From: an uncultured bacterium
Lineage (GTDB): Bacteria; Elusimicrobiota; Elusimicrobia; Elusimicrobiales; Elusimicrobiaceae
Length of the DNA: 64,000 nucleotides
Assembly: GCA_949297775.1 (NCBI GenBank)
Contig: CASFTM010000004.1
Coordinates: forward strand, 62,001 to 126,000
Direction of reading: 5' to 3'
The stretch's first letter is position 1. Each line of letters starts with the position of its first letter. Under the pieces are notes generated by a model. That model ran no database searches, was not told the DNA's origin, and was given only the letters and a program-made list of their open reading frames with translations. This document shows, piece by piece, positions 37,473-64,000 of the stretch. Made by a program: the position numbers and the translations under genes.

Positions 37473-38033
37473 TTACATCGGATAAGTGCACTTGCTAGCC
37501 CAGCCGCCATGCATCGTTCCTTCGCTGGGGACATGCATTACCTTCTTGCAAAAACCGCCCCGGCACTGCCAATTTTCCACGCAATATAATTGATTCGTTT
37601 TCAATTGTTGGTTATTACTCATCTCCGTTAAAAAATAATAGAATCCATTATTTTGGTATTTCCCATCTAGCCGAGTAATGCCAATATGTTGCCCAACCCC
37701 CGCCGAACCAACTGCCGTTTGTGAAAGAACTAATTTCCAGGTACCGTTCGTACGTATTTTTGTACTGGTTTTTTCCCAAGGGATATCCACATCTAAATCT
37801 GTAAATTCTTTTGCATAGGTGCCGTTTGCCAAATAGTAGGCCTGTTGCGCTTGTATAACGGCTTTCATTGCCGTCAATGCTTCTGCGGTGCGGGCTTTTT
37901 CTACCGTTTTTTGATATTGCGGCAAGGCTACCGCCGCCAAAATACCGATAATTAAAACGACTACTAACAGCTCTATTAGCGTAAATCCGGCGTTTTTCCC
38001 CGCCGGAAGGAGTTTTTGATAAATTTTGCTCAT
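37473..38033 (-). CDS. Type IV prepilin (major-pilin-like)
   Basis: 186 aa from the ATG 38033; a TTG two codons upstream is less likely. The signal NAGFTLIELLVVV (cleavage after Gly) is preceded by a 16-residue basic leader. Mature helix continues IGILAAVALPQYQKTVEK, followed by MKAVIQAQQAYYLANGTY, the typical alpha-1 C-terminal stretch of pilins in this group, and a C-terminal disulfide loop (CVENWQCRGGFC). No ribosome site. The start codon lies in the loop of the 16-bp hairpin at 38013-38052. Ends at the shared terminator. It may be the main pilin of this set. Confidence 0.92.
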   Translation of the reverse strand: MSKIYQKLLPAGKNAGFTLIELLVVVLIIGILAAVALPQYQKTVEKARTAEALTAMKAVIQAQQAYYLANGTYAKEFTDLDVDIPWEKTSTKIRTNGTWKLVLSQTAVGSAGVGQHIGITRLDGKYQNNGFYYFLTEMSNNQQLKTNQLYCVENWQCRGGFCKKVMHVPSEGTMHGGWASKCTYPM

Positions 38034-38052
38034 ACGCAAAATTTATCAAAAA
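38013..38052 (-). promoter_or_regulatory. 16-bp perfect inverted repeat around the pilin start codon
   Basis: Arms 38013-38028 and 38037-38052 (TTTTTGATAAATTTTG and its complement) with an 8-nt loop that contains the ATG (38031-38033). In the mRNA the start codon would be exposed in a hairpin loop or blocked by it. No Shine-Dalgarno is present. Confidence 0.65.
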
Positions 38053-38070
38053 AAAAAAACGAGTCAAGGG

Positions 38071-38155
38071 CCAGAGGCTGGCCTCCCCTCTCTTTACCCG
38101 TCAACACGACTAGAGAAGCCACACTGTTTGTGCAAAGTCGCGCTTACGCAACAGT
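38071..38155 (+). repeat. Approximately 85-bp dispersed repeat, copy 1
   Basis: Begins CCAGAGGCTGGCCTCCCCTC, with internal landmarks ACCCG, CACGA, AGCCACACTGTTT and TCGCGC. Shared with the copies at 38156, 38476, 56893 and 56969. Confidence 0.75.
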
Positions 38156-38245
38156 CCAGAGCCTGGGCCCCCTTCTCTATGCCCGTTAGCGCGATTAATT
38201 GAGTCACACTGTTCCCGCAATGTCGCGCTGTTTCAAAAAGGAAGC
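38156..38245 (+). repeat. Approximately 85-bp dispersed repeat, copy 2
   Basis: Begins CCAGAGCCTGGG; landmarks CTCTATGCCCGTTAGCGCGA, CACACTGTT and TGTCGCGCTGTTTC. Continues into AAAAAGGAAGCCGTTTCCG, also found before the second hairpin at 56668. Confidence 0.75.
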
Positions 38246-38259
38246 CGTTTCCGCTTATG

Positions 38260-38308
38260 CCGTTGCCGTTGCCGTTGCCGTGGTCGTGGTTGTTGCCGTT
38301 GTCGTTGA
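38260..38308 (+). repeat. Short tandem repeat of GTTGCC-like hexamers
   Basis: About eight units of GTTGCC, GTGGTC and GTTGTC in a row. The second island has only a remnant (GCTGTTGCC, about 56716). Confidence 0.75.
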
Positions 38309-38435
38309 ACCGCCCCTTTTGTCCCGTCTACAAAAAGCCTTCCAAGCGGAAAAGAAATTTTATTGTTTGAGTGCGGGGCACCCGCACGAGTTATAAAATT
38401 TCCCGCTTGGAAGTGATTTTTGTGGGACCCTGGGG
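38309..38435 (+). repeat. Long three-part hairpin element, copy 1
   Basis: After CGCCCCTTTTGTCCCG, an outer stem 38339-38349 / 38403-38413 (11 bp), a middle stem 38354-38363 / 38393-38402 (10 bp) and an apical stem GTGCGGG / CCCGCAC (38371-38377 / 38381-38387). Followed by GTGATTTTTGTGGG. Related copy at 56728 with compensating changes. Confidence 0.8.
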
Positions 38436-38447
38436 CGGGCGCTTTTT

Positions 38448-38475
38448 GGTACTTTTTCCCGCCGGAAAAAGTACC
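38448..38475. repeat. 12-bp inverted repeat
   Basis: GGTACTTTTTCC, 4 nt, GGAAAAAGTACC, between the hairpin element and repeat copy 3. Not present in the second island. Confidence 0.8.
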
Positions 38476-38566
38476 CCAGAGGCTGGCCTCCCGGCTCTAT
38501 ACCCGCTGACACGATTAGTGGGGCCACACTGTTTCCGATATCTCGCACTCTTTCGGAACGGCCGTC
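38476..38566 (+). repeat. Approximately 85-bp dispersed repeat, copy 3
   Basis: Begins CCAGAGGCTGGCCTCCCGGC; landmarks CTCTATACCCGCTGACACGA, GGCCACACTGTTTCCGATAT and CTCGCACT. Confidence 0.75.
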
Positions 38567-56727: not shown

Positions 56728-56857
56728 TAACCGCCCCTTTTGTCCCGCCTTTAAAAAGCGTTTTAAACGGATTAGGAATTTTATTTGTTTGAGCGCGGGG
56801 AACCGCGCGAGTTGTAAAATTCCCCGTTTAAAACTGCTTTTTATGGGACCATTTATT
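56728..56857 (+). repeat. Long three-part hairpin element, copy 2
   Basis: Outer stem GTTTTAAACGG / CCGTTTAAAAC (56760-56770 / 56824-56834), middle stem GGAATTTTA / TAAAATTCC (56775-56783 / 56815-56823), apical stem GCGCGG / CCGCGC with a GGAA loop (56793-56808). The flanks CGCCCCTTTTGTCCCG and CTTTTTATGGGACC match copy 1, and the internal loops TTTGAG and CGAGTT are identical. Confidence 0.8.
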
Positions 56858-56892
56858 CCCCGCTTGGAAGTGATTTTTATGGGGCCCTGGGC
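56858..56892 (+). repeat. Extra 3' arm of the hairpin element (copy 1 type)
   Basis: CCCCGCTTGGAAGTGATTTT and following TATGGGGCCCTGGG repeat the right arm of copy 1 (38402-38435), not of copy 2, so the second island is a mosaic. Confidence 0.7.
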
Positions 56893-56968
56893 CGGGGCTC
56901 CCCTCTCTATGCCCGTTAACACGATTAAGCCACACTATTTCCGATATGTCGCGCTCTAACGAAACACA
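56893..56968 (+). repeat. Approximately 85-bp dispersed repeat, copy 4
   Basis: GGGCTCCCCTCTCTATGCCC, then GTTAACACGATTAAGCCACA and CCGATATGTCGCGCTCTAAC. Confidence 0.75.
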
Positions 56969-57035
56969 GCCCAGTGCCTAGCCTATGCCTGCTAACGCAG
57001 CTACTTTCGGCCACACTGTTTCAGAAATGACACAC
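56969..57035 (+). repeat. Approximately 85-bp dispersed repeat, copy 5 (degenerate)
   Basis: GCCCAGTGCCTAGCCTATGC, CTGCTAACGCAG, GGCCACACTGTTTCAGAAAT. Confidence 0.6.
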
Positions 57036-57110
57036 CCTACCACAGCAGCCTTCCGGCCCTCAGAATGTGCGCAGAATTTTGTTCTTTCAGAAATGGCTGG
57101 CAGACAAAAT

Positions 57111-61287: not shown

Positions 61288-62751
61288 TTACCGCTGGTAA
61301 ATCCTCCCTGTTTCAGGTGCAACGGCCGGCCCTTTACGCAAAGCATCTTCCATTAGATCTCGGATCGTTTTAGAACCGAGAGGCTTTTTATCCTTAGCCG
61401 AAATATGCTTAAACATCCAGCCTTCGCTGCCGCCGTTGGCGATATAGGTATTGGTAGCCAGCGTATATTTGCGCCGGTTTTGCACAGGCTGGCCGTCCAC
61501 AAAAATTTCAATATCTTTGATTTTGCCTTTTTTATTTTTCGTATAGGTAACCGTCATCCCGGAATAGGAAAACAAGCTGTTGGGCGCAAAACTCTTTTTT
61601 ACAAATTTCTTTAAAAATTTTCCGTCCACCGTTACCAGCGTTACCGTGTTGTCAAAAGGATGGATGTCAATCAAATCCCGTTTGGTAACCGGTCCTTTTT
61701 CCATATCCACACGGGTACCGCCGTTGTTATGGATGGCAATCTGCGTGCCGGCATATTCCCGGATTAAATCGGCAATCCAATCATTCAGCGGGGCGTCCTG
61801 GCGGTCGGCCTGCGCCTGGCGGGAAAGGGTTTGGGCAGCTTCGCCCAGCACTTCGTCCACTCCCGGTTCCCGCAAGGAATCGGCATACGCTTTTACTTCG
61901 GCGTCTTCGCCGGTCTGCGCCACGACCAAGGGGATTAATTCGGACTTGGCTGATACAAACTTGCCGGTTTTATCGTCCGTTTCTACCGTTATGCGGCTGA
62001 CGTTTTGCAACGCGGTGCCGCTTTCCACAAACAGCGTACCGCCAATGTATTTATTCTGGAAAATATTATGCGCGTGTCCGCCCAACACCACGTGCACCTG
62101 TCCGCCGAACTTACGGGCAATGTCTTTCACATACGATTGCGTGCCGTGCTTTTCATCCTGCAAGGAATCGTGCACCAGCACAATTACTACATCCGGCTGT
62201 TTGCTTTCCAATTCTTTAAGCGCTTTTTTAAGCGCCGGCAGCGGTTTGCCGTAGGAATACAATTTAGAAGGATTGGTAGGGGTCCGGTTCGCCAACCCGA
62301 TGACCGCCACTTTTACGCCGTTTTCATCAAACAATTTATAAGGAAGTACAGACGGCGGATATTTGCCGGTGGACGCTTCAAAAAAGTTAGCCGCCAATAC
62401 CGCAAATTGGGCATTCGCCAGCAAGGGGGCCACTCCTTCGCCTTTAAAATCAAATTCGTGGTTGCCAATGGTAGCGGCGTCGTAACTCATATGGTTCATC
62501 ATTTGTACGCCTTTGAGTCCTTTGGAATTGCGGGTTTCCACCGTTCCGTTGGCAAAATCCCCGCTGTCCAAAAGCATATAGCTGGCGGGGCCGGCTTTGA
62601 TAACCGCCGCCAACGCGGCAAAACCGCCCTGACCATTCTTCGGATAAAAAAATCCGTGCACATCGCTGGTGTGATAAATCGTTGTCGTTTTGGCTGTTAA
62701 AGCCAACGGCAGAAACAAGACTGTTAAAAACAGCAACCAACTTTTTTTCAT
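61288..62751 (-). CDS. Secreted 5'-nucleotidase / UshA-family metallophosphatase
   Basis: 487 aa with a signal peptide (about 1-19) and AAGGAG before the ATG. Calcineurin-like domain with full metal motifs: YHTSDVHGF (about 26-34), LLDSGDFANG (about 60-69), IGNHEFDF (about 96-103), LVHDS (about 192-196) and LGGHAHN (about 222-228). C-terminal 5'-nucleotidase domain with AIHNNGGTRVD, DIHPFDNTVTLV and ANGGSEGW for base binding. Acts in the periplasm on nucleotides or related phosphoesters. It is the middle of three tandem paralogues. Confidence 0.93.
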   Translation of the reverse strand: MKKSWLLFLTVLFLPLALTAKTTTIYHTSDVHGFFYPKNGQGGFAALAAVIKAGPASYMLLDSGDFANGTVETRNSKGLKGVQMMNHMSYDAATIGNHEFDFKGEGVAPLLANAQFAVLAANFFEASTGKYPPSVLPYKLFDENGVKVAVIGLANRTPTNPSKLYSYGKPLPALKKALKELESKQPDVVIVLVHDSLQDEKHGTQSYVKDIARKFGGQVHVVLGGHAHNIFQNKYIGGTLFVESGTALQNVSRITVETDDKTGKFVSAKSELIPLVVAQTGEDAEVKAYADSLREPGVDEVLGEAAQTLSRQAQADRQDAPLNDWIADLIREYAGTQIAIHNNGGTRVDMEKGPVTKRDLIDIHPFDNTVTLVTVDGKFLKKFVKKSFAPNSLFSYSGMTVTYTKNKKGKIKDIEIFVDGQPVQNRRKYTLATNTYIANGGSEGWMFKHISAKDKKPLGSKTIRDLMEDALRKGPAVAPETGRIYQR

Positions 62752-62827
62752 AAGCCATTCTCCTTGCCGTAGGAATATTTTTATGGTAACAAAAACGCCG
62801 CGGCCCCTTCAAGGCGCGCGGCAAAAT

Positions 62828-64000
62828 TTATCTTTCTATCGTACGCCCACTGGAAGGCGGGAGCACAGCTCCGTTTCTAAACTCGTTCTCCAGTACCTGG
62901 CGCATGGTTTGGGTGCCGGCGGGGCGGATACTGCCTTCGGGCAGAGTTTTAAACAATTTCCCTTCGCTTCCGCCGCCCGCCACATAGGAGTTAACGGACA
63001 CCGTATATTGTTTGTCTTCCTGCAGGCGCTGCCCGCGGACCCAAATTGTAAGATTTTTAATTTTCCCGTTTTTTGTTTTGTGATACGTCATAGTTAATCC
63101 GGAGTAGGCCAGCCGGTTCCACGGGATAAGCCCGCCTTCCACCAACTTTTTTAAGAACGCCCCGCTGACTTGCGCGGTAACCACCGTGTTATCAAACGGA
63201 TATAAATCAATAATATCGCGCCGGGTAATATCCCCCTTCGGCAAGCCCACGCGCGCCCCGCCTGTATTGTGAATGCATACATCCGCCGGCGCATAGCGGC
63301 AAGTGGCGTCCGCCACCCAGTTATCCACGGGCGAGTCCATATGCCCGGGCGTTTGGGTGCGTTTTTCCAACGCGGCGGAAGCTTGCCCTATCACTTCGTC
63401 CACTCCCGGTTCGCGCAAAGACTCGGCATATTTTTTGATTTTGGCATCTTCGCCGGTTTGGGCAATATCCAAAGAAATCAATTCCGATTCAGCGGACAGA
63501 ACTTTCCCCGTTTTATCATCGGTTTCCAGTGTTACTTTGGTGACGTATTGGAAGTTGCTCCCGCTTTCAGCAAACAAAATACCGCCGCGGCGTTCGTTTT
63601 GGAAAATCTTGTGTGCATGCCCGCCTAACACCACATCTACCCGTCCGGAAAGTTGCCGTCCGATGTCGCCCATATAATGCGGCTGCCCGGGGCGGTCGTC
63701 CGCTAAGGAATCGTGCGCCAGCACTACCACCACATTCGGCTTTTTGGCGGAGACTTCTTCCAACGCTTTTTTCAACGCCGGGAACGGTTTGGATAATTTG
63801 TACTGTTGGATTTTTTTGGTAGGGTTTTGATTGGCCAACCCGATGACCGCCACTTTTACGCCGTCCACCTTAAAAATTTTATACGGGAGTACGCCCTTGG
63901 GATATTCCCCCGTCCGGGCGTCCGTCAAATTGGCGGCCAATATGGCAAAGTCCGCCTTTTTAAGCATAGCGGAAAATCCTTCGTCCTTAAAAGCAAACTC
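62828..64000 (-). CDS. 5'-nucleotidase / UshA-family metallophosphatase (N-terminus outside window)
   Basis: The frame is open to the right edge; the first residues present (EFAFKDEG) align with the EFDFKGEG after GNH in the next gene, so about 100 N-terminal residues are missing. LAHDSLADD (about 90 in the visible part), LGGHAHK, CIHNTGGARV, DLYPFDNTVVTA and AGGGSEGK are present, so the remaining metal and base-binding motifs are intact. About 75 bp separate it from the middle paralogue, so the three genes probably share a transcript. Confidence 0.9.
   Translation of the reverse strand, partial: EFAFKDEGFSAMLKKADFAILAANLTDARTGEYPKGVLPYKIFKVDGVKVAVIGLANQNPTKKIQQYKLSKPFPALKKALEEVSAKKPNVVVVLAHDSLADDRPGQPHYMGDIGRQLSGRVDVVLGGHAHKIFQNERRGGILFAESGSNFQYVTKVTLETDDKTGKVLSAESELISLDIAQTGEDAKIKKYAESLREPGVDEVIGQASAALEKRTQTPGHMDSPVDNWVADATCRYAPADVCIHNTGGARVGLPKGDITRRDIIDLYPFDNTVVTAQVSGAFLKKLVEGGLIPWNRLAYSGLTMTYHKTKNGKIKNLTIWVRGQRLQEDKQYTVSVNSYVAGGGSEGKLFKTLPEGSIRPAGTQTMRQVLENEFRNGAVLPPSSGRTIER

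Follow-up and report, generated by a model that had tools for sequence, protein, structure and literature searches.

A type IV pilin-like gene (MSKIYQK...; minus strand, 37473..38033; PF07963 match at G000:C4:99923-99997) lies 276 nt from a large intergenic hairpin, termed H1 here (copy 1; plus strand, 38309..38438; 157.7 bits in cmsearch). All positions count within the window, i.e. the whole 64,000-nt stretch analyzed (contig CASFTM010000004.1, 62,001-126,000); G000 denotes the genome it belongs to, and relatives are numbered G0xx. Going outwards from the gene, a perfect inverted repeat (16 bp, loop of 8 nt), TTTTTGATAAATTTTG-ctcatacg-CAAAATTTATCAAAAA, surrounds the start codon (38013..38052), and a promoter-like stretch on the minus strand (38040..38067) combines TTGACT, a T12-tract spacer and GATAAATT. 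Several modules of a ~74-85 nt repeat, M1 (family D4), stand between this promoter and H1, one adjoining the promoter (38071..38144) and one further out (38156..38229), and a GCCGTT-type hexamer tract of variable length (38259..38308) lies between H1 and the pilin side. Directly 3' of H1 we found the palindrome P2, GGTACTTTTTCCCGCCGGAAAAAGTACC (38448..38475), with another M1 module on the far side of both (38476..38549). One to three of these intergenic M1 modules (74-85 nt) stand in tandem upstream of pilins, and also beyond H1 (38071-38549 and 56886-57059).

The outer stems of copy 1, CCGCCCC/GGGGCGG and GTCCC/GGGAC (within 38309..38438), are followed inward by an A5 run with the CCTTCCAAGCGG stem, a bulge (AAAA) on the left side only, the inner stem GAAATTTTAT and the tip TTTGAG[TGCGGG GCA CCCGCA]CGAGTT. 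Copy 2, of a different arm subtype, occupies 56728..56857 on the plus strand (107.3 bits), and an extra partial right arm, ATTCCCCGCTTGGAAGTGATTTTTATGGGGCCCTGGG (plus strand, 56855..56896; repeat family D7), matches the right arm of copy 1 at 90%. The initial annotation had described these copies as one hairpin of stacked stems with compensating changes between them, and both were indeed present at those positions and fold in the same way. Folded alone, copy 1 reaches -68.7 kcal/mol (z -10.1) and copy 2 -51.3 kcal/mol (z -7.0), with 0 of 200 shuffles as stable in either case. Each reported change was confirmed, namely C-G to G-C, two C-G to T-A and G-C to A-T in the outer stem, A-T to G-C in the middle stem and T-A to C-G in the apical stem, and one further C-G to T-A change adjoins the A5/T5 run. 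In copies from this genome the stem is flanked by A5...T5, so that T5 follows it on either strand. A coding function was rejected since tip lengths differ by non-multiples of three.

Copies and covariation of H1 in the genome and genus

In the genome (1.69 Mb, 32 contigs, 97% complete), BLAST yielded 22 near-complete copies of H1 and several fragments, some of them at contig ends. A covariance model built on 21 of the BLAST copies extended this to 28 distinct places. In the 21-copy alignment, standard pairs made up 97.0% of pair cells compared with 92.0% in shuffles, and shifting the partner by one base reduced pairing to ~53%. Both-sided changes were seen at 10 pairs and in 58 cells (shuffle mean, 21 cells), although the copies group into a few subtypes and the independent covariation events are therefore fewer than the cell count; the covariation score of 0.163 was reached in 0 of 500 shuffles. 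The further copies and supported covariation on which the initial annotation had let its structural claim depend were thus both found, in the genome search and in the 21-copy alignment.

Four arm subtypes were distinguished in this genome: GTCCC/GGGAC, GCCCC/GGGGC, GAGCC/GGCTC and a TTTTAAAC form. Several copies (L003, L010, L143 and L152) combine the 5' arm of one subtype with the 3' arm of another, which points to recombination within H1. A separate copy (L020, G000:C8:28307-28470) carries a duplicated left arm, a rearrangement of the slippage type.

With the same covariance model, H1 was matched in 20 of 37 genomes of the genus including its own, i.e. in 19 other species, with up to 30 copies per genome outside its own. 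The order's other genera, represented by 24 genomes, gave no match. Arm sequences vary freely within the genus yet stay complementary, single pair positions showing all four Watson-Crick pairs, while the tip is kept as TGTTTGAGC...GCGAGTT, with TGTTTGAGC...GCGAGTTT nearly fixed. The feet of the hairpin are CCGCCCC/GGGGCGG in the genus and unrelated to this elsewhere. Within the phylum, 14 genomes of the genus and two others carry a relaxed form of the tip, a patchy distribution.

Position of H1 at type IV pilin loci

The position of H1 relative to pilin genes, which the initial annotation had missed, proved steady within the genus. In its own genome, 19 of the 22 copies precede a type IV pilin-like gene by 165-551 nt, all in the same orientation, and the stretches reaching up to 900 nt upstream from the 87 pilin-like genes together make up less than 5% of the sequence. 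In relatives, 55 of the 70 assessable (non-edge) copies lie 117-733 nt upstream of a pilin. Each species keeps one orientation of H1 to the pilin, which in G010 and G018 is opposite to that in G000; 15 copies in G010 are on the right and one on the left, and all copies in G000 are on the left. Opposite orientations in different species argue against a strand-specific leader RNA.

The three remaining copies of G000 have no pilin next to them. At the 56728 copy the pilin is missing, and the corresponding place in the relative G020 holds purB, a pilin and H1; judged by this comparison, the 56728 copy is a former pilin locus. The other two (L039 and L041) have counterparts in G011 and G020 in the same neighborhood, also without an adjacent pilin.

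The number of PF07963 type IV pilin-like genes is itself extraordinary, with 87 in a genome of 1.69 Mb and 22 to at least 150 per genome among 41 genomes of the genus. A promoter-like stretch of the form TTGAYT-N2-T(12)-GATA is common to 56 of the 87 pilin genes of G000, and exactly 12 T are present in 49 of these 56. Next to T12-GATAAATTTTG, which is apparently leaderless, pilin promoters come in a second form, T12-GATACA with a longer leader and a Shine-Dalgarno-type site (L051, L067, L071, L095, L098 and L102). Some pilin promoters of G010 carry homopolymer A instead of T between the -35-like and -10-like boxes, and one orthologous pilin locus in three species (L149-L151) has promoter tracts of ~16, 15 and 10. 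Such tract-length variation is as expected of slippage-prone promoters that may be phase-variable. The 16-bp inverted repeat surrounds the start codon in most pilins of this genome; G017 has an altered version before the start codon that is still palindromic, so this repeat looks like an operator or recombination site and not just like coding sequence.

Pilin 5' regions are near-identical and the 3' parts diverge, an arrangement reminiscent of pilE/pilS antigenic variation in Neisseria, where pilin genes exist in several copies, keep their 5' ends conserved and have repeated DNA upstream. All three of these traits recur here, but most of the present loci look complete, with their own promoter and terminator. 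Antigenic variation of this kind draws on silent cassettes from which variable sequence is passed to an expressed locus. H1 and the homologous pilin 5' region could, by analogy, anchor exchange between loci and so generate pilin variation. In keeping with this proposal, the copies composed of two arm subtypes imply breakpoints inside the hairpin. The comparison of the orthologous loci L149 (G013) and L150 (G011) also agrees with it: their flanks match at 92-94% identity, but the pilin's variable part (~605-889, oriented) is unalignable as DNA, with proteins that still share 66% over this part. Pilin variable regions hence evolve much faster than, or apart from, their surroundings. However, a search for a donor of the replaced or hyperdiverged variable part in L149/L150 returned none, most pilins lack H1, and pilin 3' flanks are unique, each with its own terminator, for which reason we rejected a two-sided pilin cassette. 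On balance, we regard a recombination site for pilin variation as unlikely.

The tip in other phyla and the level of constraint

The tip reaches far beyond the genus, which had likewise escaped the initial annotation. At least 116 GTDB genome stretches contain the exact 20-mer TGTTTGAGCGNAGCGAGTTT, with a GNA loop, compared with a chance expectation of ~2 (estimated as 4/4^20 x 2 x 257 Gb). On changeable arms, the same 20 nt occur in Bacteroidota, Pseudomonadota, Bacillota, Desulfobacterota, Patescibacteria, Elusimicrobiota and others, the carriers including Variovorax, Rhodoferax, Sedimenticola, Flammeovirga, Flavobacterium, Parabacteroides, Elizabethkingia, Lachnospiraceae, Selenomonas, Desulfobacula, Nitrospirales, Gastranaerophilales, Magasanikbacteria and Vogelbacteria. 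Of the 116 loci among the matches listed, 67 have flanks able to form 9 or more of the 10 inner pairs, compared with 1.9% when right flanks were exchanged between loci. The general plan is an inner stem of 9-10 bp, a left bulge of 4-5 nt (GTTAA, ATTAA, ATCAA or AAAAA) and a right bulge of 0-1 nt, and the H1 of the window follows it too. d(GCGNAGC) is an unusually stable DNA mini-hairpin; in G000, the tips bear an extended stem, frequently with a GNA loop at its end. From the 20-nt exact core and the shared architecture, we infer that the tips of the various phyla share one origin.

A slightly looser pattern gave the highest copy numbers per genome in Flammeovirga (138), followed by Sedimenticola (79 and 53), Arcicella (51) and a soil Bacillota genome (35), in which the 20 copies examined fall into a few arm subtypes, each of them complementary; because the tip reads almost alike backwards, a control for this pattern is uninformative. 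P2-type palindromes also occur 3' of H1 in Bacillota and Bacteroidota loci. Among the matches listed, P2 accompanies H1 at a distance of up to 400 nt in 11 of 116 loci, compared with 3 matches elsewhere in 852 kb (2 of 80 loci with a stricter first pattern), making it a frequent companion rather than a general one, and a universal H1-P2 unit was rejected. A phage origin was also rejected, as only 6 exact tips were present in 2.9 million viral contigs.

The covariation could reflect a structured non-coding or cis-regulatory RNA acting on pilin expression, and the initial annotation had taken it to mean that the structure itself is selected or needed for spread. That the structure is kept is borne out by the covariation; its reading as selected RNA is not the best one. 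A transition at a paired site yields G-T or A-C equally, so that a selected RNA should show many G-T and few A-C pairs. In the genus alignment, which was fitted to the covariance model and is thus biased towards the structure in its pair counts, 3131 cells are Watson-Crick, 63 G-T and 46 A-C, i.e. ~2% are G-T. In cross-phylum stems, picked on Watson-Crick pairs alone, the counts are 1224, 35 and 10, respectively, and this mild surplus of G-T on the TGTTTGAG strand leaves room for a degree of selection on a single strand, be it RNA or DNA. Wobble pairs are rare everywhere and no more than mildly favored, which we read as upkeep at the DNA level with at most weak single-strand selection. By its pairing pattern, the covariation is better accounted for by template switching, or by selection acting on a DNA hairpin, than by a conventional structured RNA. 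Besides the rarity of wobble, the RNA reading must contend with the position of H1, which lies further upstream than the promoter, the M1 modules and the hexamer tract and is therefore probably outside the pilin mRNA, and with its variable orientation to the pilin. Elsewhere H1 is dispersed beside unrelated genes; a Pfam survey of neighboring genes outside the genus found no enriched family. Rfam returned no match at the gathering score and nothing sensible at a permissive threshold, in agreement with the earlier statement that no named RNA family has this layout. Despite the strong covariation, we consider an RNA function rather improbable.

Cross-phylum copies favor gene 3' ends (80 facing 3' ends compared with 45; 17 convergent and 3 divergent settings), which would suit H1 as a boundary. 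H1 and P2 might block transcription into the pilin locus from both sides, leaving each pilin under its own promoter. The A5...T5 flanks, which would serve either strand in G000, agree with such an insulator, as do the direct placement of H1-P2 before TTGACA promoters in G010 and upstream neighbor genes that face either way. Yet a U run is mostly absent after the cross-phylum stems and P2, a fixed 20-nt tip is unnecessary for a terminator, and many pilins of the same genome lack H1 (present at 17 of 50 promoter-matched pilins). We probably deal with an element that serves, or is tolerated, as a boundary at pilin loci, while insulation as the explanation of H1 itself appears doubtful, if somewhat less so than exchange between loci, a function with which it partly overlaps.

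Relation to known repeats and a proposed origin

Three identities had been suggested from the sequence: a non-coding RNA, a REP-like element or the ends of a non-autonomous mobile element. The first loses ground through the rarity of wobble pairs, and the REP-like one comes closest in behavior, H1 being an extragenic, dispersed, multicopy palindrome. REPs, BIMEs and REPINs, including GTAG- and CGTC-tagged palindromes, are associated with RAYT (TnpA-REP) proteins (PMC3733652, PMC3116915, PMC8266576). H1 resembles them further in its bulged imperfect stem and its occurrence in many bacteria. It differs in length (110-130 nt, compared with 20-40 nt for REPs), in arms that vary inside one genome and in the place of its fixed sequence, which is the tip, whereas REPs carry a tetranucleotide tag (GTAG/CGTC) at the foot; no tag of this type was found at the feet of H1.

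Mobilization by a RAYT (Y1 HUH) transposase would suit a palindromic, extragenic and multicopy element, and Y1_Tnp genes occur in 25 of 32 motif-bearing genomes. Nevertheless, the motif was found in 0 of 30 loci around Y1_Tnp genes elsewhere, Y1_Tnp is absent from G000 and from 34 of 41 genomes of the genus, with no relation to the presence of H1, and length and tip are unlike those of REPs. We therefore consider a RAYT-mobilized REP very improbable. The integron integrase model TIGR02249 gave no match over its cut-off in G000, and in the absence of this integrase an integron attC identity was rejected. Like attC sites, H1 is a sequence-variable hairpin with a conserved single-strand structure and one-sided bulges; unlike in attC, the conserved part is the tip and not the foot of the stem, and the copies are dispersed and not placed in cassette arrays. 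Y1_Tnp and integron integrase were the mobilizers looked for, and neither is tied to H1, which may or may not form the ends of a non-autonomous mobile element. With MITEs, H1 shares a non-coding, dispersed, inverted-repeat nature and the lack of a transposase of its own, but its arms lack the sequence conservation usual for terminal inverted repeats. H1 appears to work like REP and MITE elements; two defining features of REPs, the tag at the foot and RAYT linkage, are absent, and a MITE would be a candidate identity at most.

Taken together, we favor, with moderate confidence, the reading of H1 as a dispersed palindromic DNA repeat of an apparently unnamed family that is copied along with pilin 5' regions in this genus. 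The tip and P2 strings gave no relevant match in open-licence PMC literature, and an earlier description elsewhere is possible. The family would be defined by a near-invariant tip, TGTTTGAGC, a short loop or mini-stem and GCGAGTTT, carried by a long hairpin with arms that vary in sequence and stay complementary; it is present in many phyla and reaches tens of copies in a genome, or more. Constraint would act on the DNA hairpin, either as a cruciform or as a single strand, and arm complementarity may be maintained by template-switch correction, by selection on the hairpin or by both. Within the genus, H1 would have been copied from locus to locus together with the pilin promoter, leader and repeat modules by gene conversion or duplication, and the pilin-side copies may serve as boundary or recombination elements of the pilin locus.

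A tip shared by otherwise free arms implies a common recognizer or way of spreading, apparently unnamed in the literature searched. We tentatively propose, as a possibility short of a probable one, that the tip, with its tandem G-A steps and GC-GNA-GC mini-hairpin, is recognized by a widespread protein with affinity for single-stranded or cruciform DNA, which spreads such hairpins or makes use of them in many phyla. H1 would then represent a distinct class of element whose arms are free as long as they pair, co-opted in this genus at an expanded and possibly phase-variable pilin repertoire. The tip consensus is short and exact enough for a pull-down, and the steady position upstream of pilins in one genus offers a concrete setting for testing the function of the hairpin. 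At the far end of the window (61834-64000), two adjacent paralogous coding stretches are ~70% identical (direct repeats D2, D3 and D8; spacing 1543).
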